Below the pieces are notes generated by a model. The model saw only the letters and a list, made by a program, of their open reading frames with translations. It made no database searches and had not been told where the DNA came from. Positions 3,811 to 47,813 of a stretch of 52,299 nucleotides of DNA are shown piece after piece; the stretch's first letter is position 1, and each line of letters opens with the position of its first letter. The DNA is from Candidatus Halobeggiatoa sp. HSG11 (GTDB taxonomy: Bacteria > Pseudomonadota > Gammaproteobacteria > Beggiatoales > Beggiatoaceae). Position numbers and translations under genes: made by a program. Location: positions 1 through 52,299 of the forward strand of contig JAUCGL010000014.1 of assembly GCA_030378105.1 (NCBI GenBank), read 5' to 3'.

Positions 3811-5706
3811 ATGAAAAAATATGGTTTACTCGTAGCATTATTAATGGAATCAGCAATTGCTGTTCCGGAAATTCCAGCAGTATTTACCAATTCAATTAAG
3901 TATCAAGATGGCAAAATGGTCATGATTGATAAAACTAAAGGTAAAACCTATCCTATACGGAAGGAAGCACCTTTGTATACTTTGGAAGCAGCAGAAGGTA
4001 AAATAACTGGTACAGATACTGGTCTAGCCTTTGATTTTGGTTATTTTGAAGGAACTCTATATTATGGTTTAATTAACTATAATGATGGAAATCATCCAAT
4101 GCCAGTGTTTTTCAAGAAATCAGTTCCAATTGAAAACGGTAAAACTAAAATCACAATTAAAGGCGGATTATCTGGCAAATATGATATGTCTGGTTGGGAA
4201 AAAGCTGGCAAAGGAACCTTAGGTTATCGATTGGTTAACACAAAAGGTAACATAATTTATGATGGTCGTGTGTCTTTTCAAGGCTTAGGACCGTTTAAAA
4301 CCAACGTTTCCTTTATTGAAGAACCAACAGTTAATTATGTCACTAATGACAGTGCAGTTATTGCATTTAGGACTAATTTTCCATCAATAGCAGTTGTTAA
4401 GTTAGGCGATAAAACTTTTAATTCTTCAACCAGTAAAAATCATGAAGTTAAGCTGACCAATTTAGCTTCAGATACTATCTTTTATTACACAGTAACTGTT
4501 TCTGCTCCCGGACAATTATCCAATTCCCAATCTTATAGTTTTAGCACTGCCCCTAAACCCGGAACTCGCAAACCATTTGTATTCGCTTATGCAAGTGATT
4601 CCAGAGCTGGTCAAGGTGGCGGAGAGCGTGATATTTATGGTACAAATGCTTATGTTATGAAGAAGATCATGGCCGTAGCTAAGGCAAAAGGGGCGGTGTT
4701 CTTCCAATTTACCGGCGACATGATTAACGGGCGTTTTAACAACGTATCTGAAACTAAACTTCAATATCAAAATTGGAAACGGGCTATTGAACCTTTTAAT
4801 CATTATATGCCAGTTTATTCAACAATGGGTAATCATGAAGGGCTGTTCCATACTTTTAACGATGGATCAAGAATTGGAATTAATGTAGCTCGTTTTCCAT
4901 TTGCTACCGAATCGGCGGAAGCTATATTTGCGAGTCAATTTGTATTACCAGAAAATGGGCCTGTAAGTGAAGATGGGGCTGAATATGATCCAAATCCTCA
5001 AACTCCTGGTGATTTTCCTAGTTATAAAGAAAATGTTTATTATTATGTATATGATAACGTAGCAATGGTAGTTTTAAATTCTAACTATTTGTTTTCACAA
5101 TCTTTTAAATATTGGTTTGCTAAAAAACATAAAAAGGGTACTTTGGCTTCCGGCGGTGGTTTGCATGGGTATTTAATGGATAAACAATTGGAATGGTTGG
5201 ATAAAACATTGGATAAATTGGAAGCTGATCCGAATATTGATTTTATTTTTGCCACTCAACATACTCCAATATTTCCAAATGGTGGTCATAAAGTGGATGA
5301 TATGTGGTACGATGGCAATAATAGTCCACGTCCATATATAGCTGGTAAACCAGTGCGACATGGAGTTATTGAGCAGCGTGACCGTTATTTGGAAATGTTA
5401 TTGAAACATGAAAAAGTGGTGGCTGTTTTAACTGGTGATGAACATAATTATGCTCGGATGGAATTAACTCCAGAAACTCAAATTCATTTAGCTAACTGGG
5501 ATAATCCTAAAGTAGAAGTTACTCGTTCTCTTTGGCAGATAAATAATGGAGCAGCAGGAGCTCCGTATTATGCACAGGAAACTTTGCCTTGGTCAAATCA
5601 AGTTAAATTGTTCTCTACTCAAAATGCGGTGGTATTTTTCCATGTAGATGGACAGAAATTGCGTATAGAGGTAGTTAATCCAGAAACTTTGGAGAGAATT
5701 GAGTAA
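3811..5706 (+). CDS. Secreted metallophosphatase (purple-acid-phosphatase-like, calcineurin fold)
   Basis: Predicted exported phosphoesterase of 631 residues. It has a weak signal peptide (KKYGLLVALLMESAIA). A beta-rich N-terminal region follows, with a fibronectin-III-like domain (about residues 165-250) of the kind that precedes purple acid phosphatase catalytic domains. The calcineurin-like dimetal domain then carries the expected ligand motifs: ASDSR (about 259), FTGDMINGR (about 302), MGNHE (about 341), ATQHTP (about 482) and GDEHNYAR (about 543, in the GHxH position). A good GGAG lies 8 nt before the ATG. The stop codon overlaps the start of the next gene by one base. The substrate is unknown; phosphate scavenging from organic esters is plausible but not shown. 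Confidence 0.85.
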   Translation: MKKYGLLVALLMESAIAVPEIPAVFTNSIKYQDGKMVMIDKTKGKTYPIRKEAPLYTLEAAEGKITGTDTGLAFDFGYFEGTLYYGLINYNDGNHPMPVFFKKSVPIENGKTKITIKGGLSGKYDMSGWEKAGKGTLGYRLVNTKGNIIYDGRVSFQGLGPFKTNVSFIEEPTVNYVTNDSAVIAFRTNFPSIAVVKLGDKTFNSSTSKNHEVKLTNLASDTIFYYTVTVSAPGQLSNSQSYSFSTAPKPGTRKPFVFAYASDSRAGQGGGERDIYGTNAYVMKKIMAVAKAKGAVFFQFTGDMINGRFNNVSETKLQYQNWKRAIEPFNHYMPVYSTMGNHEGLFHTFNDGSRIGINVARFPFATESAEAIFASQFVLPENGPVSEDGAEYDPNPQTPGDFPSYKENVYYYVYDNVAMVVLNSNYLFSQSFKYWFAKKHKKGTLASGGGLHGYLMDKQLEWLDKTLDKLEADPNIDFIFATQHTPIFPNGGHKVDDMWYDGNNSPRPYIAGKPVRHGVIEQRDRYLEMLLKHEKVVAVLTGDEHNYARMELTPETQIHLANWDNPKVEVTRSLWQINNGAAGAPYYAQETLPWSNQVKLFSTQNAVVFFHVDGQKLRIEVVNPETLERIE

Positions 5707-6127: not shown

Positions 6128-9100
6128 TCATTCCAATTCAACCTTATTATTACACCGTTTCAAATAAACTTGGGCCGCAATATCGTCTTTGTTAACTTTT
6201 AACACTTTCTCAAACAGTGGTTTAGCATCTTTATATTCTTCCCAATGGTATAACACAAATCCTTCTTCAAAATTGTTACGAGTTTTATCTTTCAATTCCA
6301 AACTGATAGCTGAATCAGCGTCATAAATCTCATATATGGTGACAACTTCTGTTTTACCTTTAACTTGTACCGCATCAATCACTCTAACATGATATTGTAA
6401 TGGGTCTTTTAACTTTAAATAAGTTTGTTCAGTGATTAACAAAGGAGTCCCATATATTTTGGTTAAGCCTTCAACTCTGGAAGCAACGTTAACCGTATCA
6501 GAAATAACCGTACCATCCATTCGATTTTGTCCACCGACAGTACCTAACATTGATGGCCCAGTATTTAATCCAATCCCAATTTGCATAGGTTTCAAACCAC
6601 CTCGTACTAAAAGTTCATTATGTTGAGTTAACATATTAAGCATAGCTATCCCACCTTTAACTGCATTATCTGCATTATCTGGAAACAAAGCCATAATTGC
6701 ATCACCAATATATTTGTCTATGATGCCTTTATTTTCAGCAATAACTGGCTCCATTTTACCAAGATACATATTAATTAAATCAAATACCTTTTTAGGTGAC
6801 ATAGTTTCAGACATTGCGGTAAACCCTCGAATATCAGAAAACAAAATGGTTATTTCTTTTTCAATATGATCACCTAAATTAACTTCAATGACACTGTTTT
6901 TTTCTAATAAACTGAGAAATTGTTTCGGTACAAAACGTTCATAAGCTTGATTTAGTTTGTATAATTTTTCTTTTTGAGCTTCAGCTAACTGTTCAGTTAG
7001 AGTCTCTAATTCTGTATTTTTAGTTTGTAATTCTATATTTTGCTGCTTGACTTGTGCTTCAATACGCTTGCTTTCAGTTATATCTTGACTAAAACCTTTA
7101 AGATAAATTGGAGTTTCAAAATCATCGTATTCCAATTCAGCTTGTGAACGTAAATTTCGTATTTGGCCATCAGACCAAATAACTCGAAATTCTATTTCAG
7201 CAACATCTTCACCAATAATGCAAGTCTCCAATAAAGAATCAATTTTTTCTTTATCGTCTGGATGAACTTGTTCAACAAAAGCTTCATAACTTGGAACGTA
7301 ATCGTTTGGAGCAATTCCACAGTTCAAACAATCCTGAGTTGAACGAGATACAGTTCCCATTTTAATATCCCAAATCCAACTGCCAACTAAAGCCATGCGT
7401 TGAGCATCTTCCAATAACTTTTCGCTATTACGTAATCTTCCTGTACGTTCAGCAACTTGTTGTTCTAAAGTTTCAGAATAATTGGTTAATTTTTGGGTGA
7501 CTTGCTGTTGTTTAAATTCAAGTTGTTTACGCTCAGTTATATCTTGTATAATATTGATAGCATAAATAATATCGCCCTGTTCATCAAAAATTGGAGTTCC
7601 AAAAATTTCTAAAGGAACTACTGTATTATCACGATGAATTTCCACATCATTTATACTGGTTTTTTCTCCTTTTAAAGCTAATGCAAACGGTAGCTTATCA
7701 TCAGAATATAACTGTTTTGTATCAGTAAGATAAAAAGGTCGATCAGTAAATAATTCTTCAATGGTAGTTATAGTTATGGTTTTTAATTCTTCCAATCCTA
7801 AAATTTTTTGAGCTTGTTGATTAAAAAAGAAAATAGTTCCATAAACATTCAGCACTATAACACCGATTGGCATGGATTCTAAAAATTGCATGAGCCGATT
7901 TTTATTTTCAACTGTTAGTCGCAAAGTTTCAGCTTTAAGTTTAGAAACGTTGAGATGAGTTTTAATTCGAGCTATTAACTCATCTTTAAACACAGGTTTA
8001 GCAAGATAATCATTGGCTCCATTTTCAAATCCAATTACCATGTCTATTATTTGATTCTTGGCGGTCAGTAAAATAATTGGTAGTTCATCAGCCGCCCAAG
8101 TTTTACGAATTTCTTTAGTTACTTCATAACCACTTTTAACCGGCATCATGATATCTAATAAAATAATGTCAGGACGTTCTATTTTTTTCAATATTTCTAA
8201 TGCTTGCACTCCAGATTCAGCTTGAATAATATTATAATTTAATAAAGATAAATGGTTAACCAATACTTGTCTGTTAACTGGTTCGTCATCAACAATTAAC
8301 ACGGTGTGTTTGTCCGAGGGCAATAATTCTATAACTGTTTCCTCAATAACTTCTTCGTCAGGTAGTTCTGGCAATATTGAATTTGAATTATCTAAAGGTG
8401 CTTGTTTAGCTATAATTGGTAATTGTTCACTAGTTATTTGTTCCTCGGTAATTGGCAAAATGAATGTAAATTTTGAGCCTTGATTTAAGCGTGATTCCAC
8501 ACAAATATGACCGCCGTGTAAACTGACTAACTGGTGGGTAACTGCCAATCCCAAACCAGTACCACCATAAGTTCTTGCTGTTGAACCATCAACTTGTTCA
8601 AATGCTTCAAAAATACGGCTTAATTTTTCGGTTGGAATTCCAATTCCAGTATCAGCAACAGTCACTGCAAAACCTTCTGTTACTATTTCAGCCGATATTG
8701 TAACTGTACCTTTTTCGGTAAATTTAATCGCATTACCAACTAAGTTATGTAAAATTTGTTGAACACGGTTTTCGTCAGCGTTAAGAGGTGGTAAATAAGT
8801 TGAAATTTCATTGATTAATTTAATATTTTTTTTCTCAATCAATGGCTGACTGAGAGCTAAAACTATTTCCACAATAGTTGGCATATTAATGGAAGTACGT
8901 TGTAAATCAAACTCTTGTTTTTTAAGTTTGGAAAAGTCTAAAATATCATTGACTAAGCTAGTCAGCCTTCTGCCACTGGATACAATTATCGCTAAATTAG
9001 ATTCCAACTGTTGATTAACATTGCCAGCAACTCCATCAATTAATGACTCAGCTATTCCAATGATGCCATTAAGAGGTGTGCGTAATTCATGTGAAGTATT

Positions 9101-11629
9101 GGCTAAAAATTCATCTTTTAATCTATCTGCTTCCTTTAATTGAATAGCTATCTGTTGTTCTCGCTCTAATTCTCGTTGTTTGGCTGCCAGTTTACGTTTT
9201 TGCAGACGCATATAGCTGATAATAATAGCTAAAATAGTGATTAAATATAAAGTATAAGCCCACCAAGTTTGCCAAGGTGGTGGTAATACAGTTATTTTAA
9301 TAGCAGTTCCAACTTCGTTCCAAATTCCATCATTATTGCTACCACGAACTCGAAAGGTATAAGTTCCATGTGGCACACTTGTATAATAAGCATTGCGGCG
9401 AGTTCCGATGAAATTCCAATCTTGTTCTAAACCTTCCAGTTGATAAGCATATTTATTTTTTTCTGGCTGCAAAAAGTTCAAAGCTGCGAACTCAAAAGAA
9501 AAGAAAGATTGCTGATAATTCAATATGATATTATTGGTTTCACTGATATGCTGGGTTAAAGTTTCTCCAATCGCTACTGGTTGATTGAAAATTTTAAAAT
9601 CGGTAATAATAACAGGCGGTACATAAGGATTATCTTTAACTTTTAATGGATGGAAAACATTGAAACCATTGATACCACCAAACAAAAACTGGCCATTGTT
9701 GGTTTGATAGTAAGCTTCTCTAAATTCATCGCTTTGTAAACCATCTAATACATCATAATTCCGGAAAGTATTTTTGTCGGGATTAAATTTGGACAGTCCA
9801 CCATTAGTACTTATCCAAAGATAACCTTGCCCATCCTCTAAAATTCCATAGGTGACATCGTTGGCCAAACCATCAATCTGTCGATAATGAGTTAACCTTT
9901 GAGTTTCACGATCCAACATATTTAAGCCACCGCCTTGAGTACCAACCCACAGTCTATGCTGACTATCTTCATAAACAGCAAATACATCGTTATGGCTTAT
10001 GCCTTGTTCTTGTTGATAAACAGTAAAAGTTTCAGTTTTGGGATCAAATCTATTTAAACCACCACCCTGAGTACCAATCCATAATATGCCGCCAAAGTCT
10101 TCATAAATAGATAATACACTGTTTTCGCTGAGAGAATTTGGATTGTCAGGGTCATTTTTATAATGGGTAAATTGCTTGCGATCAAATTTATTTAAACCAT
10201 CTCTTGTACCTAACCATAAATTACCAGCCCGATCTTCATAGATGGCTCGCACCATATCATTGCTTAGGCTATTCAGATCGTCTGGATTGTGGAGATAATG
10301 AGTAAAAGTTTGACCATCAAATTTATTCAAACCATTCTCAAAAGTTCCAATCCACACAATTCCAGCTTGATCTTCATGAACTGACCAAACATCATCACTG
10401 CTTAAACTATTGGGATTGTCCGGATCATGTTTATAATGAGTGAAGCTTCCATCTGTTAATTTATTCAATCCGCCACCAAGAGTTCCAATCCAGTGAATAT
10501 TATTGTTATTAACGTGAATGGAGGAAACAGTGTTATGGCTTAAACTGTTGGAATTTTGTGGATCGTTTTTATAATGGACAAATTTATCTCGATACCGATC
10601 AAATTTATTCAAACTACCACCATCAGTACCAACCCATAAAGCTCCAGCCTGCTCTTGGTTAATTGACATAACATAGTCATTGCTTAAACTACGTGGATTA
10701 TTTGGATCGTGAATATTGTGGATAAATTTATTTTGAGCTGGCAGATATTGGTCTAATCCACCATCAGTTGCAATCCATAGATTGTTGGAAGCATCTTCAT
10801 TAATTGCCCAAATAGTATCATTATTTAAGCTATCGGGATTTTGCGGATCGTTAATATAACGGATAAATTGATTATTTTTTAATTGATTAAGTCCAGCATC
10901 CATAGTTCCAACCCACAAATCACCATTATGATCTGCAAAAATATCGGTTATGCTATCGCTGCTTAAACTCAAAGGATTTTTGGGGTCATGTCGATAGTTA
11001 GTAAATTTTTTAGTCTTGGGGTCAAAACGATTAAGACCAGCACCATCAGTACCTATCCACAAAATCCCTTTTTTATCAGTATGGACTCGCCATAAAATAT
11101 CACCACTTAAACTATTGGGATTGTTTGGTTCATGTCGATAATGAGTAAATTTTTTGCCATCGAAATGATTTAAACCAGTGTCATAAGTGGTAATCCATAA
11201 ACCAGTTGCATCTTCACAAATGGACAATACGCCATCACTACTTAAACTATTGGGATTGTCAGGTTCATGTTGATAACTGGTAAAATTATCCTGCTGTCGA
11301 TTATATTTAGCAATTCCACCATCATTTATGCCAATCCACAAATTTTTAGCTTTATCTTCATAAATAAAAGTGATGAAATTTCCAGTTAAGCTATTGGAAT
11401 TATTTGGTTCATGTCGATAATGAGTAAAATCATAACCATCGTATTTATTCAAACCATCTTGAGTTCCAAACCACATAAACCCCTTGCTATCTTGCAAAAT
11501 AGCATAAACTGTACTTTGTGATAGTCCATCTTTACGAGTTAAATGCTCAAATTCTTGCCCATAAACAGATAAACTAATTAATAATAGAAGGATTTTGTAG
11601 TAAATATTCATCAACTTGCTAAACAACAT
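6128..11629 (-). CDS. Propeller sensor - histidine kinase - receiver - PAS-PAS - adenylate cyclase fusion
   Basis: A giant 1833-residue membrane sensor. A signal peptide (alternative start at Met7) precedes 14 two-component-type propeller repeats with LWIGT..GGLNKFD motifs (about 25-680; two seven-blade propellers). A Y_Y_Y domain (about 705-778) and one transmembrane helix (about 787-808) follow. The cytoplasmic part has HisKA ([10 protein letters not shown] near 847), HATPase (about 955-1075), a receiver (LIVDDEP, phospho-Asp in LLDIMMP; about 1110-1225), PAS (about 1255-1365) and PAS (about 1405-1515). A coiled coil, a class III cyclase (about 1580-1760) and a TPR-like tail complete it. 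The cyclase keeps both metal Asps (FSDIRGF, IGDAIMALF), and its DGTVISDTVNVASR motif resembles cyanobacterial CyaC-type adenylate cyclases. It likely converts an extracellular polymer or glycan cue into cAMP through internal phosphorelay. It is monocistronic. Confidence 0.92.
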   Translation of the reverse strand: MLFSKLMNIYYKILLLLISLSVYGQEFEHLTRKDGLSQSTVYAILQDSKGFMWFGTQDGLNKYDGYDFTHYRHEPNNSNSLTGNFITFIYEDKAKNLWIGINDGGIAKYNRQQDNFTSYQHEPDNPNSLSSDGVLSICEDATGLWITTYDTGLNHFDGKKFTHYRHEPNNPNSLSGDILWRVHTDKKGILWIGTDGAGLNRFDPKTKKFTNYRHDPKNPLSLSSDSITDIFADHNGDLWVGTMDAGLNQLKNNQFIRYINDPQNPDSLNNDTIWAINEDASNNLWIATDGGLDQYLPAQNKFIHNIHDPNNPRSLSNDYVMSINQEQAGALWVGTDGGSLNKFDRYRDKFVHYKNDPQNSNSLSHNTVSSIHVNNNNIHWIGTLGGGLNKLTDGSFTHYKHDPDNPNSLSSDDVWSVHEDQAGIVWIGTFENGLNKFDGQTFTHYLHNPDDLNSLSNDMVRAIYEDRAGNLWLGTRDGLNKFDRKQFTHYKNDPDNPNSLSENSVLSIYEDFGGILWIGTQGGGLNRFDPKTETFTVYQQEQGISHNDVFAVYEDSQHRLWVGTQGGGLNMLDRETQRLTHYRQIDGLANDVTYGILEDGQGYLWISTNGGLSKFNPDKNTFRNYDVLDGLQSDEFREAYYQTNNGQFLFGGINGFNVFHPLKVKDNPYVPPVIITDFKIFNQPVAIGETLTQHISETNNIILNYQQSFFSFEFAALNFLQPEKNKYAYQLEGLEQDWNFIGTRRNAYYTSVPHGTYTFRVRGSNNDGIWNEVGTAIKITVLPPPWQTWWAYTLYLITILAIIISYMRLQKRKLAAKQRELEREQQIAIQLKEADRLKDEFLANTSHELRTPLNGIIGIAESLIDGVAGNVNQQLESNLAIIVSSGRRLTSLVNDILDFSKLKKQEFDLQRTSINMPTIVEIVLALSQPLIEKKNIKLINEISTYLPPLNADENRVQQILHNLVGNAIKFTEKGTVTISAEIVTEGFAVTVADTGIGIPTEKLSRIFEAFEQVDGSTARTYGGTGLGLAVTHQLVSLHGGHICVESRLNQGSKFTFILPITEEQITSEQLPIIAKQAPLDNSNSILPELPDEEVIEETVIELLPSDKHTVLIVDDEPVNRQVLVNHLSLLNYNIIQAESGVQALEILKKIERPDIILLDIMMPVKSGYEVTKEIRKTWAADELPIILLTAKNQIIDMVIGFENGANDYLAKPVFKDELIARIKTHLNVSKLKAETLRLTVENKNRLMQFLESMPIGVIVLNVYGTIFFFNQQAQKILGLEELKTITITTIEELFTDRPFYLTDTKQLYSDDKLPFALALKGEKTSINDVEIHRDNTVVPLEIFGTPIFDEQGDIIYAINIIQDITERKQLEFKQQQVTQKLTNYSETLEQQVAERTGRLRNSEKLLEDAQRMALVGSWIWDIKMGTVSRSTQDCLNCGIAPNDYVPSYEAFVEQVHPDDKEKIDSLLETCIIGEDVAEIEFRVIWSDGQIRNLRSQAELEYDDFETPIYLKGFSQDITESKRIEAQVKQQNIELQTKNTELETLTEQLAEAQKEKLYKLNQAYERFVPKQFLSLLEKNSVIEVNLGDHIEKEITILFSDIRGFTAMSETMSPKKVFDLINMYLGKMEPVIAENKGIIDKYIGDAIMALFPDNADNAVKGGIAMLNMLTQHNELLVRGGLKPMQIGIGLNTGPSMLGTVGGQNRMDGTVISDTVNVASRVEGLTKIYGTPLLITEQTYLKLKDPLQYHVRVIDAVQVKGKTEVVTIYEIYDADSAISLELKDKTRNNFEEGFVLYHWEEYKDAKPLFEKVLKVNKDDIAAQVYLKRCNNKVELE

Positions 11630-12392: not shown

Positions 12393-13220
12393 ATGAAAAA
12401 TTTAATATTTTCAATAATAAGAATAATAGTTGGAACAATAATCGCTATACCCTTATTATTATACCCATATCTATATTTTATCCAAGAAAAGTTATTATTT
12501 ATCCGTCAAGATTTATCACATTCCGTCCAGAACTATTCTTTTGTTGAAGAGGTGCAAATAAAGACTCATGACAATGTTACATTGCATGGTTGGTTAGTTA
12601 AATCCGAACCAAAAGCTCCGTTATTAATCTACTTTGGTGGTAATGCTGAGGAAGTTTCTGGACACATAATGGACTATAAACAACTGGCAGGTTGGTCGTT
12701 GTTGCTAGTGAATTATCGTGGTTATGGTCTAAGTACAGGTTCACCAAGTGAAAAAAATTTATTTAATGATGCGGTATTACTTTATGATACTTTTGCCAAC
12801 CGAAGTGATGTTGATAGCAATAAAATTGTAGCATTTGGACGTAGTCTTGGTACTGGAGTTGCGGTATATCTGGCTTCTCAACGGAATTTGCAAGGAGTGG
12901 TGCTGGTTTCACCTTATGATAGTATGAAAAATTTAGCTCAAGAGTATTATCCTTATGTACCAGTATCTTTACTTTTAAAACATCATTTTGATTCAATGAG
13001 TTATGCTTCTGTAATTAAAGCTCCAATGTTGACAATGATTGCAGAGCTGGATCAAATTATTACTCCAAAACATTCCTTGAGATTGGTTAAAGCGTGGGGT
13101 GGAACTGTGCAACAAAAAATTATTAAAAATGCTAATCATGATGACATTAGTTTAGCGTCACAATACTGGGAAACTGTCACTTATTTCCTTGATTCGGTAT
13201 TGGAAAAAGATCAGTTATAG
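12393..13220 (+). CDS. Membrane-anchored alpha/beta hydrolase (ABHD13/Bem46-like)
   Basis: This 275-residue serine hydrolase has an N-terminal hydrophobic anchor (residues 5-32) and an alpha/beta hydrolase fold. A catalytic triad is readable: Ser151 in the nucleophile elbow GRSLGTG, Asp220 in AELDQIITP and His249 in NANHDD. An oxyanion strand YFGGNAE and the NYRGYGLSTGSPSE segment are typical of the Bem46/ABHD13 group. The substrate is unknown; members act on lipid or acyl esters at membranes. The ATG at 12393 has only weak Shine-Dalgarno support but begins the hydrophobic anchor correctly. It stands alone between repeat-rich gaps and converges on the leftward lemA gene. Confidence 0.88.
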   Translation: MKNLIFSIIRIIVGTIIAIPLLLYPYLYFIQEKLLFIRQDLSHSVQNYSFVEEVQIKTHDNVTLHGWLVKSEPKAPLLIYFGGNAEEVSGHIMDYKQLAGWSLLLVNYRGYGLSTGSPSEKNLFNDAVLLYDTFANRSDVDSNKIVAFGRSLGTGVAVYLASQRNLQGVVLVSPYDSMKNLAQEYYPYVPVSLLLKHHFDSMSYASVIKAPMLTMIAELDQIITPKHSLRLVKAWGGTVQQKIIKNANHDDISLASQYWETVTYFLDSVLEKDQL

Positions 13221-16642: not shown

Positions 16643-16872
16643 CTATTTTCTACCTTTTATATAGATAAGTGTCATTTTACCTTTAATTTCAATTAATCCT
16701 CTTTCTTCCATGAAAAACTTATCTTTAATCCGGTGATATGTGATTTCTGAAACTTGAATTTCATCTGGGATACCTGTGATTCCATTCTACTAGCTATGTT
16801 TACAGTATCGCCCCATAAATCATAATTAAATTTATGTTTACCAATTACTCCTGCGACCACTGGACCAGTCAT
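16643..16872 (-). pseudogene. Remnant of a class III adenylate/guanylate cyclase, frameshifted and truncated
   Basis: Leftward reading gives [20 protein letters not shown] and then [11 protein letters not shown], the middle of a class III cyclase domain. After ES the frame slips: a missing base (CAGGT where CATGGT is expected) moves the rest to another frame, which reads [20 protein letters not shown], then [19 protein letters not shown], to a stop at 16643-16645. The N-terminal half is absent; the homology stops exactly where repeat D begins at 16873. It has at least two lesions and no plausible activity. Confidence 0.8.
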
Positions 16873-28270: not shown

Positions 28271-31200
28271 ATGAAAAATTACCTTATTTTATTGGCCATA
28301 ATATTGTTAACACAGGTAACCCGAGCCGAAAATATAAAATTTGAACATTTAACTGTTGAAGATGGGTTATCAAATAATATTGTTTTTTCCGTATTGCAAG
28401 ATAGTCAAGGTTTTATTTGGATTGGTACTAAAAACGGATTAAGCAAATATGATGGTAATAAATTTATAGTTTATACCCATGATCCAGATAACTCAAATAG
28501 CCTCAGTGGTAATTATGTTAGATATTTATTTGAAGATCACAATGGAATTTTATGGATTGCATTACGTCCCGGAGGATTAAATCGCTTTGATCCAGTTACT
28601 GAAACTTTTACTCGTTATCAACATGATATAAATAATTCTAATACTTTAAGCAATAATAGTGTTTGGTCTATTTACGAAGATAGTAATGATATATTATGGA
28701 TAGGTACTGAAAATGGTTTAAATAAGTTTGACCCTAATACTGAAGCATTCACTCGTTATCATAATGATGCAGATAATCTTAACAGTTTGAGTCACAATCA
28801 AGTACAAACTATTTGTGAAGATAATTCTGGAATTTTATGGGTTGGTACTCAAGGCGGATTAAATAAATTTGTCCCAACTACCGAAACTTTTGTTCGTTAT
28901 CAATATGATGAAAATAATCTTAATAGCCTAAGCCATAATTGGACTAATTCCATTTATAAAGATAGTTCTGGAATGTTGTGGATTGGTACTCAGGGCGGTG
29001 GGATAAATAAATTTAACCCATTAAAAGAAACTTTTATTCGTTATAAACATGACGCTAATAATCCCAATAGTTTAAGCTATGATTGGACTCATTCTATTTA
29101 TGAAGACAGTAATGGGATGTTATGGATTGGTACTAGAAACGGTTTGAACCAATTTGATCGAAGCAATAATAAATTTATTCATCATAAGAAAGATGCTAAA
29201 CAACCTAACAGTTTGAGTGATAATACAGTTTTTGGAATTATTGAAGATACTACCGGTACTTTATGGGTCAGTACTGTTAATGGTTTGAATAAATATGATC
29301 CGGGTAATAAACGGTTTGCTTTATATCAACATAATCCCAACAATCCTTATGGCCTTAATAATAATACAGTTATGGCTATTTATGAAGATAATGCTGGTAT
29401 TTTGTGGATTGGCACAAGAGGCGGAGGACTTAATAAATTAAATCGAACCAATGATAATTTTACTCATTACAAACATGAAGCAAATAATCCTAATAGTTTA
29501 AGTGATAACCGAATTTTAGCAATTCAACCAGATAGCAAAAATAATCTATGGATTGCCACAAGTAGTGGTTTAAATAAGTTTAACCCAAAAACTGAAACGT
29601 TTGTGCATTATAAACATGATCCAAATAATATAAATACTATAAATGATAATTTCGTATGGGACATTGAAATTGACCAAGACGACATTGTATGGATTGGTTT
29701 AGGTAGAGGAAAAGGTTTAGACCGTTTTGACCCAATAACTGAAACTTTCACTCATTATATTCTTAATGAAGATTCTAGCTTTGGCTTTATCAGAGTAGTA
29801 ACCATGGATTCTAACGGTGCATTGTGGATTGGTACAGAAAACAAAGGACTTACCAAATTTATTCCAGCAATTAGTTCAAATAAAGAAATTTTTATTAATT
29901 ACCAACATGACAAGAATATCCCTAATAGCTTAAGCAACAACACTATTAACATGATTTATGAAGACAGTGCTGGTACAATTTGGGTTGCTACTGGAGATGG
30001 TTTGAATAAACTTGACGGCAATAAATTTACTATTTATCGTCAAAAACAAGGACTAGCCGGCAATAGAGTGGTTGGCATTCTGGAAGACAAACAAGGTTAT
30101 TTGTGGATAAGTACTGACAATGGTTTATCAAAATTTGACTCTCAGCAACAAGTATTTAGAAATTATGATCGTTGGGATGGATTGCAAAGTAATTTCTTTG
30201 AGCTGCATTCATCCTATAAAAGCAAAAGTGGTGAGCTATTTTTTGGTGGAGTTAATGGATTCAATGCTTTTTATCCAGAGAAACTACTTGATAATCCGCA
30301 TATTCCATTAGTTGTATTGACTGATTTTCAATTGTTTAACAAACCAGTTACTATAAGTAAAGATTCACCATTACAACAACATATTAATTTTGCCGAGCAA
30401 ATCATTCTATCTTATGATAAAACTGTATTTAGCTTTGAATTTGCTGCTTTGAATTATCGAGCTGCCAATAAAAATAAATATTCGTATATGATGGAAGGCT
30501 TTGATAAAGATTGGGCGGACACTGATAGTAATCGAAGATTTGTCCATTATACTAATTTAGACCCCGGTGAATATATTTTTCGAGTTAAAGCTTCCAATAA
30601 CGATAACAAGTGGAATGAAGATGGAACGTCTATTAAAATCATAATAACTCCCCCTTGGTGGGAAACCCTTTGGTTTCGAGGTGCAATGCTTATTTTGTTC
30701 GTAGCTTTGTTAATTGGTGGAGTTAAATGGCGATTATATGCAGTTAAAAAACGCAACCGAGAACTTGAAATTCAAGTTGCAGAAAGAACCCAAGAGCTAA
30801 AAAAAGAAAGAGATGGAGCAGAAGTTTTACGAGAGCAAGCTGAAGTAGCTAATCAGGCCAAAAGTGCTTTTCTTGCTAATATGAGTCACGAACTAAGAAC
30901 GCCACTTAATGGTATTTTAGGTTATGCTCAAATTTTACGCCGTGATCCAGTTATAACAACTCAACAACGTCATGGCTTAAATGTTATTGAACAAAGTGGT
31001 AATCATTTATTAAATCTGATTAATGATGTACTTGATTTAGCAAAAGTAGAAGCTGGTAAAATAGAATTATACAATGTTGATTTCAATTTGCCACTCTTTC
31101 TAACCGGAATGGGAGAAATGATTCGAATTCGAGCTGAATGTAAGGAAATTAATTTTAACTTGGAAATTGATTCTAGCTTACCCAACCATATACATGGTGA

Positions 31201-32224
31201 TGAGAAACGTTTGCGGCAAGTGTTACTTAATTTGTTAGGCAATTCGGTTAAATTCACTGATCAAGGCCATATAGCACTTAAAGTGGAAGCTCAAGAAAAA
31301 AATATTCGTTTTATAGTTGAAGATACTGGAATTGGTATGACGGCTAAAGAACTCCAAACTATATTTGACCCATTTCATCAAGTTGGTGATCAAGATAGGC
31401 AAATTAAAGGCACTGGACTTGGTTTGTCTATAAGTAAAAATTTAGTTGAGCTAATGAATAGCCAATTACAAGTAGAAAGTCAAAGTGGTTCTGGAACTAA
31501 GTTTTGGTTTAATTTGGCTTTGTTACCCGTAGAAAATAAAGAAACAGTTCAAGACATAGAACCAGACTTACCAATTATTGGCATTAAAGGTAGAACTAGA
31601 AAAGCATTAGTAGTTGATAACAATTGGGAAAATAGGGCAGTAATCGTAGATTTATTAGTACCATTAGGTTTTGAAATTCAAGAAGCTAATAATGGTTTGA
31701 AAGCTTTAGAAAAATCCATAAACTTTAATCCAGATGTTATTATAACTGACTTAATAATGCCAGAAATGGATGGATTTGAATTAATTGCTAAAATTCGCAG
31801 TTCTCAAGAATTGAAAGACAAAGTTATTATTGCAGCTTCAGCCAGTGTGTATGAAGAAGACCAAAATAGAAGTATAGTGGTTGGCAGTAATGTATTTTTA
31901 CCTAAGCCGATACAAGTTGATAGTTTGTTGTCTCACTTACAAAATTATTTGAATTTAACTTGGATTTATGGTGATACTAAAGAAGTTACAAAAGTTGCAG
32001 AAATTAAACAAGAAATAACATTTCCGTCACCAACTGAAGTGGCAGAGATGTATGAGTTATCCTTAATGGGTGATGTTAATGGATTGGCAAATCAACTGAC
32101 TAAATTGTCTCAAGTTGATTCTAAATTCCAGCCTTTTATTAATGAAATGCAAAAATTGCTGAAAAGTTATCAATTGGAAGCTATAAGTGAATGGCTTGAA
32201 TCTTGCCAAGATACACCTAATTAA
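28271..32224 (+). CDS. Propeller sensor hybrid histidine kinase
   Basis: A 1317-residue sensor with a clean signal peptide ([20 protein letters not shown]). Fourteen propeller repeats with LWIGT..GLNKFD motifs (about 25-670) predict two seven-blade propellers. A Y_Y_Y domain (about 715-790) and one TM helix (about 795-818) follow. The cytoplasmic part has a coiled coil, HisKA ([12 protein letters not shown], His near 873), HATPase (about 975-1085) and a receiver (about 1110-1225; phospho-Asp in [12 protein letters not shown]). The receiver reads VVDNNWENR, with Asn in place of the second acidic residue of the usual DD pair. It is organised like the propeller-cyclase protein but ends after the receiver plus a short helical tail. 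The diguanylate cyclase gene begins 21 nt downstream and is the likely phosphorelay output. Confidence 0.93.
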
Positions 32225-32245
32225 TCATATAATTTTTATAAAAAA

Positions 32246-33133
32246 ATGACAAGTACAATTTTAATTGTTGATGACGAACCAAATAATTTAGACGTATTAA
32301 ATAATTGTTTACATAGTGCAGGTTTTAAAGTGTTAGCTGCTACTAATGGTGAAATGGCTTTAAAGCGAGTTGCTTACAAAAAACCGGATTTGATTTTGTT
32401 AGATATAAATATGCCAAAAATGGATGGCTTTGAAACTTGTAAACGATTGCGAGAAAATGAAAGCACAAAAGATACTCCAGTTATTTTTGTTACTGCTTTG
32501 GCTGATATTGAAACTAAATTAAAAGCCTTTCATGCTGGCGGAGTTGATTATATAACTAAACCGTTTGTGGAAGAGGAAGTATTGGCTCGAGTCAGAGTGC
32601 ATATAAGGTTAGAAAAAACTCTGGAAAGATTGGAAGAGTTATCAATGACAGATACTTTAACTGGGGCTTTTAATCGTAGATCAGTGTATAAAGTTTTGGC
32701 TCAACAAATTGAAAGAACTAAAAAAGCCAAAGAATGTTTTGTGTTATGTTATATAGACATAGATAATTTAAAAATAATTAATGATAATTATGGTCATGCA
32801 GAAGGGGATGTGTTAATCAGTACTGTAGTTGATTTTCTTAGAAATATGATAAGGGCTTCAGATTATGTTTTTCGTATGGGTGGTGATGAATTTTTGATTA
32901 TATTTCCTAAAGTTAAATTGGAAGATTCACAAAAGTTAATTGAAAGGATAAGAAAAACTTTAAATAAACAAAAAATTCATGATATGGCGATTGATTTTAG
33001 TTTCGGATTCTCAGAATATTGCTGTAAAAATGATATGTCTCCTAAAGCTTTAATTGAAATAGCAGATGAAAATATGTATAAAGCTAAAATGGAAAAAAAA
33101 CGCAAGATGCAAACTGTAAGTTTAAACAAATAG
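32246..33133 (+). CDS. Response regulator diguanylate cyclase (REC-GGDEF)
   Basis: A 295-residue cytosolic response regulator making c-di-GMP from two GTP. The receiver (residues 1-120) has LIVDDEPNN, phospho-Asp in LLDINMPKMDG and the conserved Lys in TKPF. A short linker helix leads to the GGDEF domain (about 135-288), starting DTLTGAFNRR. It has an intact catalytic motif RMGGDEF and an allosteric inhibition site RxxD (RASD) exactly five residues before GGDEF, so it should be active and product-inhibited. It lies 21 nt after the propeller kinase and 13 nt before the ZnuA-like gene on the same strand, indicating an operon in which the kinase drives c-di-GMP production. Confidence 0.95.
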   Translation: MTSTILIVDDEPNNLDVLNNCLHSAGFKVLAATNGEMALKRVAYKKPDLILLDINMPKMDGFETCKRLRENESTKDTPVIFVTALADIETKLKAFHAGGVDYITKPFVEEEVLARVRVHIRLEKTLERLEELSMTDTLTGAFNRRSVYKVLAQQIERTKKAKECFVLCYIDIDNLKIINDNYGHAEGDVLISTVVDFLRNMIRASDYVFRMGGDEFLIIFPKVKLEDSQKLIERIRKTLNKQKIHDMAIDFSFGFSEYCCKNDMSPKALIEIADENMYKAKMEKKRKMQTVSLNK

Positions 33134-45119: not shown

Positions 45120-47813
45120 CTATGTATATTCATTATATAATTCAAATAGATACCCTATCCTAGCCATTTCATTGGGGAATGGTTTGGGGCGGTAGCAAAG
45201 GTCAACGGCTTTATCAAGAGTTTGATGAGCTTTGACTAGTTTTGGTGGCATGGTTAATGGATCGTATAAATCGGCCAGACTGCTATCAGGAAATTCAGCC
45301 CGCACATCCAAAATTTTTTGAGCGGCTTTTTCTACTTTGGTTGTATTCTTTTTGGCTGGGTCTTTGGGCCAAGGGAAGTTGTTGTAAACTATACCTTTTG
45401 AGTATCTGAAATCACTTTTTAATCTTCCACAAGTATATTTTACCCACGCCATGTGCATTATTGATGTCAAAATTCCAAAATGATATTTTGTAGCGTTTGG
45501 AATAGACATGCAAGTATCGCTTATAATATAGTTTTTATCAAAAAATCCCATTGGTATGTATTTGCGGTTTTCTGAAGATACTCTTGGTACTACTATAGAA
45601 CTATCTGCTCTGTTTCGGTCTCTAAATAATGTTGGTGTAAGTGAATGTTTTTGAGTTGAAGGAGCTTTGCTCGCTAATCTAAATTCCTTAACTTTCTGTA
45701 CTCTATCCAACACAAATGGCATTGATTTCAATTCCTGTGGTTCTATTCCTTCTAACCATAAGCACCATCTATTTTTTTGATTTAAAAACTCTTTTGCACT
45801 AACTAATGGCAAAATATATTTTTTTGCTTTTGGTTCTAATTTTAAAAAATCTGATAATTCATCATCATTTATTATTAAATTTCCGCCATCTAACGGCATG
45901 TTACCAAATGACATCTTTGGAACTTCACAAATTGGTTTATTTTTTCTAACTATAACAAGGTCATTAGCATCAATCAAATAAGGATTTATATTTTTTACTT
46001 TCAATTGAGCAGCTTCACCTTTAATATCAGAATAAACAAACAAGTATTTATTATTTATATCAAAATTGGAAAAACCGATAATTATGCAATAAACTGCTGC
46101 TTTTCCCTTAGCTTCATTATTCCATTTAAAAGTATTATGTGCAAAATGAATTTTAATGCCAAAATTATTAAGCATTTCATACCACAAAACACCAACTTGT
46201 TCACCTTGTGTTATAGAATTAGTGGAAACAAAAGCAATTTTTATGTTAGTATTTTGAATATATTTAGAGGCCAATAGATACCAAGCAGAAACATAATCCA
46301 ATATTTTTCCGTTAGTTACTCCTAAAAATATATTAGCCATTTCTTCCCGTTGCTCTTTATTAAGTAATTTTGAACCAATAAACGGTGGATTCCCAAGTAT
46401 ATAATTTAACTTGTTTTTTGGAACAACAGCCTCCCAATCAATTCGCAACGCATTCCCATGCACAACATTAGCAGACTTCCACAATGGCAACCTCGTAAAA
46501 TACTGCCCAAACTCCTCCGAAACCAACAAATTCATCTGATGATCCATCAACCACATCGCTACCTCAGAAATTCGCACCGGCCACTCATCATACTCAATCC
46601 CATAAAACTGATCCACCTCAACCAACACCAACAAATCAATATTAAACACCTGTTGACTACCTTTCAACTCCCGCAAAACTTCAAGCTCCAACAACCGTAA
46701 CTCACGATAAGAAATAATCAAAAAATTCCCACACCCACAAGCCGGGTCCAAAAATTTAAGCTGTGCCAACTTCTTATGAAAAGCCTTCAACTTGGTCTTA
46801 TTCTTCTTAACCTTCCCAAACTCCTCCCACAACTCATCCAAAAACAACGGCTTAATCAACTTCATAATATTCTTCTCAGAAGTATAATGAGCTCCCAAAT
46901 TCCGCCTTTCATCCGACTTCATCACTGCCTGAAACATAGAACCAAAAATAGCCGGCGAAATCTTCCCCCAATCAAGCCCACAACAATCCAACAACATCTC
47001 CCGCATCTGTGAATTAAACGCTGGAATTGGTAACGGCTCCTCAAACAACTTACCATTAATATACGGAAACTGATTCAAAGACTCATCCAAGTTTTTCAAT
47101 CGCTTAGAACGTGGTGTATTCAAAACCTGAAAAAATTCCGACAACAAAGTCCCCAAACTGTTTCCGTCAATCCCTGTTTTAACCTCCACAAACTCCTTAA
47201 ACAAATCCTGCTCAAAAATCCCAGTACTATCCGCAAACAAACAAAACAATATCCGCACCAACAACACTTCCAACGGATGACCATTATAACCATTATCCTC
47301 AAGCAAATCACGCAACTTACCCAACAACTCAGCAGCTTTTATATTAACCGGGTCTTCTTCCTTAAAAACCCGCTTCTGATAACCAGCGATAAAACCAAAC
47401 AACTTAATATTATCATGCAACTCACTGATATTAAACTCATATTCTGTAGAATCATCCAGATCATACAAGCGAAACTTTTCAAAATCGGACACCAACACAT
47501 ATTTTGGCAATTCCCGTTCCTTCAAACCACTAAAATAATCCAATGCTTGCGAATAAGCCCTATCTAAATTCTTACCTTTTGACTTATGTTCAACCAACAA
47601 AGTACCTTTCCAAAACAGGTCAATAAAACCATATTTATCATTTAATTTTTTAACCGACTGCTCAAACGAAGCCAATCGCCTCCGACTCATTCCAAAAATA
47701 TGAAAAAAACCATCCCAAAACGACTTCGCTTCAGCATGTTCCCTTGTTTCTCCTTGCCATTCCTTGGAAAATTTTAACGCCCTGTCCTTAATTTCATTCC
47801 AACTTAAAGCCAT
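45120..47813 (-). CDS. Type IIL (MmeI-like) restriction-modification enzyme
   Basis: A single-chain enzyme (897 residues) that both methylates adenine and cuts DNA. An N-terminal nuclease domain has Asp65, then Glu75-His-Lys77 (IDLFWKGTLLVEHKSKG), matching the D-x9-ExK spacing known for MmeI. A helical spacer (about 130-330) leads to the gamma-class N6-adenine methyltransferase, with motif X-like GAHYTSEKNI, motif I FLDPACGCGNF (about 355) and motif IV GNPPF (about 472). The remaining C-terminal half should be the target-recognition domain that sets specificity. All key residues are intact, so it is probably active; a methyltransferase-only role is the alternative. Base composition shifts sharply at about 46430, just before motif IV, as if the halves had different histories. 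Confidence 0.87.
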   Translation of the reverse strand: MALSWNEIKDRALKFSKEWQGETREHAEAKSFWDGFFHIFGMSRRRLASFEQSVKKLNDKYGFIDLFWKGTLLVEHKSKGKNLDRAYSQALDYFSGLKERELPKYVLVSDFEKFRLYDLDDSTEYEFNISELHDNIKLFGFIAGYQKRVFKEEDPVNIKAAELLGKLRDLLEDNGYNGHPLEVLLVRILFCLFADSTGIFEQDLFKEFVEVKTGIDGNSLGTLLSEFFQVLNTPRSKRLKNLDESLNQFPYINGKLFEEPLPIPAFNSQMREMLLDCCGLDWGKISPAIFGSMFQAVMKSDERRNLGAHYTSEKNIMKLIKPLFLDELWEEFGKVKKNKTKLKAFHKKLAQLKFLDPACGCGNFLIISYRELRLLELEVLRELKGSQQVFNIDLLVLVEVDQFYGIEYDEWPVRISEVAMWLMDHQMNLLVSEEFGQYFTRLPLWKSANVVHGNALRIDWEAVVPKNKLNYILGNPPFIGSKLLNKEQREEMANIFLGVTNGKILDYVSAWYLLASKYIQNTNIKIAFVSTNSITQGEQVGVLWYEMLNNFGIKIHFAHNTFKWNNEAKGKAAVYCIIIGFSNFDINNKYLFVYSDIKGEAAQLKVKNINPYLIDANDLVIVRKNKPICEVPKMSFGNMPLDGGNLIINDDELSDFLKLEPKAKKYILPLVSAKEFLNQKNRWCLWLEGIEPQELKSMPFVLDRVQKVKEFRLASKAPSTQKHSLTPTLFRDRNRADSSIVVPRVSSENRKYIPMGFFDKNYIISDTCMSIPNATKYHFGILTSIMHMAWVKYTCGRLKSDFRYSKGIVYNNFPWPKDPAKKNTTKVEKAAQKILDVRAEFPDSSLADLYDPLTMPPKLVKAHQTLDKAVDLCYRPKPFPNEMARIGYLFELYNEYT

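Follow-up and report, generated by a model that had tools for sequence, protein, structure and literature searches.

Can a single bacterial polypeptide convert an extracellular cue into cAMP through an internal phospho-switch? The question is raised by a gene on the minus strand (11629..6128) of the window, the whole 52,299-nucleotide stretch of DNA analysed here, which is contig C51 of a 5.2 Mb genome. A sequence-only reading of the window had proposed that the receiver domain of the encoded protein acts as an internal switch for a cyclase, so that a periplasmic cue is turned directly into cAMP, a proposal made reasonable by the anatomy, completeness, conservation and modular reuse described below. 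With moderate confidence, we put forward that the protein is a self-contained transmembrane hybrid histidine kinase with an adenylate cyclase output, phospho-switched in the manner of CyaC and carrying a sensor of the hybrid two-component system (HTCS) type. Its parts, an HTCS-type sensor and a CyaC-type domain order, are known; for the propeller-cyclase fusion, a literature search (titles and abstract starts) returned no paper describing a propeller-kinase-REC-cyclase architecture among the matches listed.

Gene and domain anatomy

The gene comprises 1833 codons plus stop, and the plus strand across 6128..11629 is riddled with stop codons. The single open frame of 1833 residues reported earlier for this interval is borne out, on a strand that had gone unnamed. 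Translation probably begins at Met7 (nt 11611), a choice made more likely by the orthologue L010, in which a stop codon lies directly 5′ of the aligned Met. A chance frame or assembly artefact was rejected because orthologues exist in other genomes of the genus: all four have one, three of them full-length (78-79% identity) and the fourth truncated where its contig stops (79%). The features of the gene are as follows.

6128..11629, minus strand: whole gene, 1833 codons plus stop, likely start Met7 at 11611
11555..11611, minus strand: signal-peptide-like start, Met7 to about residue 25, as judged from sequence alone
9560..11554, minus strand: 14-blade double beta-propeller of Reg_prop repeats, residues ~26-690 (Pfam, model, structure match)
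9284..9475, minus strand: Y_Y_Y domain, 719-782 (Pfam)
9203..9265, minus strand: single transmembrane segment, ~789-809 (hydropathy peak)
8921..9118, minus strand: HisKA, 838-903, phospho-acceptor His847 (Pfam, residue check)
8447..8776, minus strand: HATPase_c, 952-1061, checked N, G1 and G2 box residues intact (Pfam, residue check)
7961..8302, minus strand: receiver (REC; Response_reg), 1110-1223, with Asp1114, Asp1115, Asp1159, Thr1189 and Lys1211 (Pfam, residue check)
7538..7891, minus strand: first PAS domain (PAS), 1247-1364 (Pfam)
7091..7318, minus strand: second PAS domain (PAS_3 type), 1438-1513 (Pfam)
6860..7090, minus strand: linker and cyclase-transducer-like element with ERFVP motif, 1514-1590 (alignment)
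6338..6859, minus strand: class III cyclase (Guanylate_cyc), 1591-1764, with Asp1599, Asp1643, Lys1639, Thr1707, Asn1714 and Arg1718 (Pfam, residue alignment)
6131..6319, minus strand: conserved C-terminal tail, 1771-1833, TPR-like by look alone

In a domain search, all the domains named earlier scored above the curated Pfam cut-offs, with Reg_prop matching in nine stretches, except the C-terminal tail. The tail is present and conserved, and a low-confidence model of cyclase plus tail renders it as three helices (AlphaFold, pLDDT 37.7 from a 4-row alignment); it has no Pfam match at E<=0.1, which leaves its TPR-like label a likeness. Kyte-Doolittle hydropathy gave one hydrophobic peak, and from this single transmembrane segment the propeller and Y_Y_Y domain would lie on the periplasmic side. 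Neither an Hpt domain nor a second receiver was found by Pfam in the protein. The term phosphorelay applied to it earlier was therefore overstated, and by itself the protein would carry out a single His-to-Asp step.

The sensor module

The model of residues 25-790 (AlphaFold, pLDDT 94.3, 26-row alignment) contains, as read from its strand list, 14 four-stranded blades followed by Y_Y_Y, with an N-terminal strand completing the last blade, in agreement with the fourteen blades counted earlier. The top structural match of the modelled ectodomain is the ectodomain of BT4663 (TM 0.77-0.81 to query, 33-34% identity), followed by BT3049 and BT4673. At E<=0.001 the only PDB sequence matches (4a2l/4a2m, 3v9f, 3ott and 3va6) are the same proteins. 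BT4663 is thus the closest solved structure by both sequence and fold, supporting the HTCS-like sensor that had been proposed.

Like the HTCS proteins of Bacteroides, among them BT4663, the window protein joins a periplasmic double propeller and Y_Y_Y to HisKA, HATPase and REC in one chain. HTCS proteins are known to end in an AraC-type DNA-binding domain, whereas here no helix-turn-helix family was matched (Pfam, E<=0.1) and two PAS domains and a cyclase stand in its place; the host is also a gammaproteobacterium rather than a Bacteroides. As it lacks the AraC output, the window protein has an HTCS-type sensor but is not an HTCS member.

The BT4663 relative makes a saccharide the default guess for the ligand, and the polymer cue named in the earlier reading is likewise a guess. 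A glycan-utilisation locus was considered and not supported, since the scanned neighbours offer few hints and no neighbours are shared in four other genomes, one of which contributes a contig of only 7 kb. The hints amount to an alpha/beta hydrolase and a phosphoglucomutase (Pfam on 26 of the 43 window frames of at least 80 aa), the former (12393-13220) matching Hydrolase_4 best and also passing the cut-off for acetyl xylan esterase (AXE1).

The description of GdpX2 and GdpX3 of Xanthomonas in PMC6637768 places Reg_prop/Y_Y_Y in diguanylate cyclase proteins. By that description they resemble the window protein in tying a propeller sensor to a nucleotide second messenger, and differ in that their propeller belongs to diguanylate cyclase proteins.

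Census of propeller proteins

Across 42 genomes, Y_Y_Y scored above its cut-off at 55 places in 21 genomes of the family and at 32 in the other 21. After removal of two fragments (<50 aa) from these 87 places, 85 proteins were classified with purpose-built profiles, with ten tails checked in Pfam. Behind the first kinase-REC, a cyclase was found in 11 of the 85 (five of them with a further REC), SpoIIE in 12, a second kinase in 14 (four with Hpt) and GGDEF-EAL in seven. The profiles found no output in 29, three of which run off the 3′ edge of their contig or stretch; unassigned tails among the 29 reach at most 221 residues. The remaining proteins comprise two with SpoIIE directly after Y_Y_Y, seven that end at the kinase (two cut) and three that end at Y_Y_Y (one cut).

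The cyclase fusions occur in 11 of the 42 genomes and four of 25 genera (five in g1, three in g19, two in g2 and one in g22), and all four outputs are present in the window's own genome. The census qualifies the earlier impression that the domain order lacks a described member: the exact two-PAS order was seen only in the window's genus, in all five of its genomes (one copy without its 5′ part, at a contig end), but the propeller-cyclase fusion as such is not unique.

For the survey outside the family, the best 80 of a larger set of loci, 79 of them named and the set biased to near relatives, yielded 84 frames with Y_Y_Y. Among the matches listed, a cyclase was present in four: the family members L079, L080 and L081, and L112, from a Kangiellaceae metagenome-assembled genome (MAG). 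In L112 (L112:5587-10023) Pfam recognises Reg_prop, Y_Y_Y, HisKA, HATPase, REC and Guanylate_cyc. Its cyclase reaches no more than 63 bits against the family profile and, aligned by eye, has Glu at the position of the window protein's substrate Lys, so that this looks like a fusion independent of the family's, perhaps of guanylate type and possibly a propeller-to-cGMP protein. The SpoIIE version also extends beyond the family, with three of seven propeller-HK-REC-SpoIIE frames among the matches listed being Laspinema, Chloroflexi and Thermoanaerobaculia records, two of which score weakly (56 and 32 bits). REC was the last profile match in 43 of the 84 frames among the matches listed, and in many of them ~135 further residues follow, about the length of an AraC domain. 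Across 369 gammaproteobacterial genomes, the listed non-family cyclase rows with frames >1290 aa came from G045 (four) and G252 (one), and in none of these five frames did the profiles detect a propeller (best rows, at most six candidates per genome, a sampling that rare fusions could escape).

Two further arrangements were observed. In L169 (G000:C25; tail by Pfam), L189, L125, L141 and L142, propeller-Y_Y_Y is joined straight to a SpoIIE phosphatase with no kinase match between them, and these are possible one-component propeller phosphatases. In L040, L042, L043 and L052, frames of up to 2252 aa run propeller-HK-REC-PAS-HK-REC-Hpt, a full phosphorelay in one chain, with Hpt recognised by Pfam in L040 and by an L040-derived profile in the other three.

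Output exchange on a shared core

A core tree was built from the 66 of 85 proteins that have the kinase close behind Y_Y_Y and a REC; of the 19 left out, 12 lack HK-REC and seven have insertions before the kinase, all of these without further output. In this quick tree the 44 output-carrying cores group with three cores whose ends are unknown, as a single clade of 47 (SH-aLRT 100); several long outside branches make the branching order beyond the clade unsure. On a careful tree of the 47 cores, the outputs need at least nine changes, against 19-27 in 100 shuffles, indicating that outputs are inherited yet repeatedly exchanged. A single origin of the propeller-cyclase fusion was rejected: forcing the 11 cyclase-bearing cores, a group defined by output and not by tree, together costs 141 log-likelihood units (AU test, p-AU 4e-13). 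In an illustrative tree of 39 chosen cyclases, in which many branches are weakly supported, the propeller-borne cyclases are interleaved with others (at least four changes). Paralogues with SpoIIE, GGDEF-EAL or a second kinase behind propeller-HK-REC thus share the core clade of the window protein and differ from it in their output enzyme.

Of nine Y_Y_Y proteins above the cut-off in the window's genome, five from the swapping clade were compared pairwise: they are 59-74% identical in kinase and REC but only 33-54% identical in the propeller. Propeller identity is 72-80% in seven same-genus orthologue pairs with the same output. Such fast-diverging propellers fit different ligands feeding one kind of switch. 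Tentatively, and as a serious possibility rather than the probable case, the propeller-kinase-REC unit of giant sulfur bacteria could be a general phospho-switch socket, behind whose receiver unrelated outputs have repeatedly been plugged while the propeller diverged faster. Each cell would then hold parallel receptors, each with its own extracellular cue, feeding cAMP, c-di-GMP or partner-switching, and any output able to read the receiver helix might be driven.

Also encoded in the window is a further propeller-Y_Y_Y-HK-REC protein, whose core is of a different type (28271-33133, plus strand), with a REC-GGDEF gene 21 bases on; together they are likely a two-gene version that would feed c-di-GMP. 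This protein and the SpoIIE paralogue L041 are 56% identical in their propellers but only 38% in their kinases, which suggests sensor-core shuffling too.

Phospho-sites and cyclase residues

His847, the checked HATPase residues and the REC residues Asp1114, Asp1115, Asp1159, Thr1189 and Lys1211 are intact in all 44 output-carrying HK-REC proteins, including all 11 propeller-cyclase proteins, whereas the 29 proteins without further output vary at positions 997 (Gly), 1114 and 1115 (Asp), 1189 (Thr/Ser) and 1211 (Lys). This conservation, together with the joining of the same core to four kinds of output, makes it likely that the receiver is an internal switch for the cyclase; the earlier proposal is strengthened to this extent while remaining inferential. 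It also bears on a mechanism independent of phosphorylation, in which ligand-driven rotation or piston motion would reach the cyclase dimer directly along the coiled coil of the kinase, with kinase and receiver serving as struts. Linker geometry does tune sensor-cyclase coupling in an engineered phytochrome-cyclase, according to PMC5995499, but every one of the 44 output carriers keeps the phospho-acceptor, ATP-binding and receiver residues that were checked, and we regard such a mechanism as very improbable.

The Guanylate_cyc match of the window protein scores 77.2 bits against a cut-off of 21.9. The two metal-binding Asp residues noticed earlier, Asp1599 and Asp1643, are present, as are the substrate residues Lys1639 and Thr1707; all four, with Asn1714 and Arg1718, are identical in the 11 propeller-cyclase proteins, and activity is predicted from these residues. 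Their roles (metal, substrate, transition state) we take over from class III cyclases in general. Lys1639 and Thr1707 align with Lys and Thr in 3r5g (CyaB), in 1wc0, which we take to be CyaC, and in 5mbh, a photoactivated adenylyl cyclase. In 2w01, presumably the guanylate cyclase Cya2, Glu replaces the Lys and the Thr is missing, and the engineered 6fht has the Lys without the Thr. The window cyclase is most likely of adenylate type, and looks intact. Upstream of it, Arg1565, Phe1566 and Pro1568 are kept in all 11 propeller-cyclase proteins, in an element named here by its likeness to the cyclase-transducer element (CTE) described in PMC5995499.

That the cyclase is inactive or makes cGMP seems to us hardly to be expected. 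Prediction from residues is fallible, one residue being able to switch class III substrate, as when E488K turns Cya2 into an adenylate cyclase (PMC5995499); against this reading, Lys1639 and Thr1707 agree with adenylate cyclases, and the examined metal and transition-state positions are filled in 11 of 11.

The earlier comparison with CyaC holds for domain order: as in CyaC of Spirulina and Anabaena, histidine kinase, receiver and class III cyclase follow each other in one chain (Pfam), and 1wc0, taken here as CyaC, shares the substrate Lys and Thr. CyaC is cytoplasmic, has a further N-terminal receiver and is not known to have a propeller; the window protein has a periplasmic sensor, a transmembrane segment and two PAS domains after the receiver, without the extra N-terminal receiver. 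It is CyaC-type only in its HK-REC-cyclase order.

The REC-cyclase junction

Exactly 60 residues separate the REC Lys-Pro from the first cyclase metal Asp in all eight measurable direct fusions (three with propeller, five without), which are homologous and, given the near-identical pairs L055/L070 and L072/L073, represent about six distinct sequences. The same spacing is 205-211 with one PAS domain (five proteins), 384-388 with two (five proteins) and 336 in L059, where one PAS was recognised in the spacer; L001, L068 and L078, in which the motif was not found, stand outside the measurement. The fixed junction suggests rigid helical coupling between REC and transducer, or simply common descent. 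PAS-containing versions, the window protein included, must on their architecture pass the signal through the PAS domains, and the case for direct helical coupling is weaker for the window protein than for the direct fusions because two PAS domains lie between REC and cyclase and the spacing varies (384-388).

In the same genome, G000:C63, C227, C35 and C76 likewise place a class III cyclase after HK-REC, with the 60-residue junction in three and the fourth not measurable; unlike in the window protein, no propeller or Y_Y_Y was seen in their frames (that of C63 is cut 5′). L068, a relative that lacks both propeller and kinase, combines a REC with two or more PAS domains, a cyclase and a further REC.

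The position of two PAS domains directly before the cyclase invites a reading in which the fused receiver does no more than drain or tune the kinase, PAS or bicarbonate sets the cyclase, and the propeller has little say over cAMP; bicarbonate stimulates a cyanobacterial CyaC, as reported in PMC4284465. We consider this unlikely, as the same REC stands before four kinds of output and the measured direct REC-cyclase fusions, constant at 60 residues, have no room for a PAS domain.

Proposed mechanism and significance

In the phospho-switched receptor that we favour, the periplasmic double propeller and Y_Y_Y would bind an extracytoplasmic ligand, and binding would be signalled across the membrane to HisKA/HATPase by the single transmembrane helix that each subunit contributes to a presumed dimer. 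His847 would be phosphorylated and its phosphoryl group transferred to Asp1159 of the fused receiver, whose state, relayed through helical linkers, the two PAS domains and the transducer element, would alter the activity of a dimeric class III cyclase in a direction that may be either up or down. The PAS domains may add a second, cytoplasmic input. The external cue would thereby set the level of the predicted product, cAMP. For CyaC, activation by autophosphorylation and phosphotransfer was reportedly described by Kasahara and Ohmori in a 1999 paper cited in PMC1183210.

If the core truly drives unrelated enzymes through one receiver, it constitutes a natural experiment in modular signalling, with one sensor architecture and four outputs, and would offer a scaffold for building receptors that answer an external ligand of choice with cAMP or c-di-GMP. 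How cyclase-rich uncultured sulfur bacteria link outside cues to cAMP would also become easier to understand.

Genomic context

The genus of the window groups with Thioploca MAGs, its best named match being a contig titled Thioploca sp. CSMAG_545; NCBI taxonomy places Thioploca in Thiotrichaceae, Gammaproteobacteria. No dedicated operon was seen for the gene. When 20 window genes were searched on the four orthologue contigs (that of G003 being only 7 kb), none recurred beyond general kinase and receiver domains, and hence no fixed partner genes are seen around the orthologues.

These neighbourhoods speak to a last alternative, in which the receiver is mainly phosphorylated in trans, or hands its phosphate to other proteins, making the molecule a node and not a closed circuit. 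The phytochrome kinase AphC is proposed to phosphorylate, and purportedly to activate, CyaC (PMC4284465), and the window alone encodes two other large hybrid kinases. The kinase is nevertheless fused to its receiver with its residues intact, and conserved neighbours that might be partners were not seen on the four orthologue contigs; we judge this arrangement quite unlikely and retain the self-contained receptor.

Possible receivers of cAMP are offered by nine matches to the cNMP-binding domain in the genome, three of whose loci carry a phosphate-binding-cassette-like motif in a motif scan. The genome holds 26 Guanylate_cyc matches, remnants included, and matches to the window cyclase range from 0 to 28 per genome across the family. 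One such remnant lies in the window at 16672-16869 (minus strand), covering Guanylate_cyc positions 108-174 and flanked by stops, a decayed gene.

A metallophosphoesterase gene (3811-5706) is convergent to the propeller-cyclase gene, as is one that shares 51% identity with it across 168 aa (L047:7497-8000), in a genome of the Parabeggiatoa group; it was not found near the same-genus orthologues, and the convergent pairing is perhaps chance. The window further encodes an MmeI-type restriction-modification enzyme (45120-47813, minus strand).
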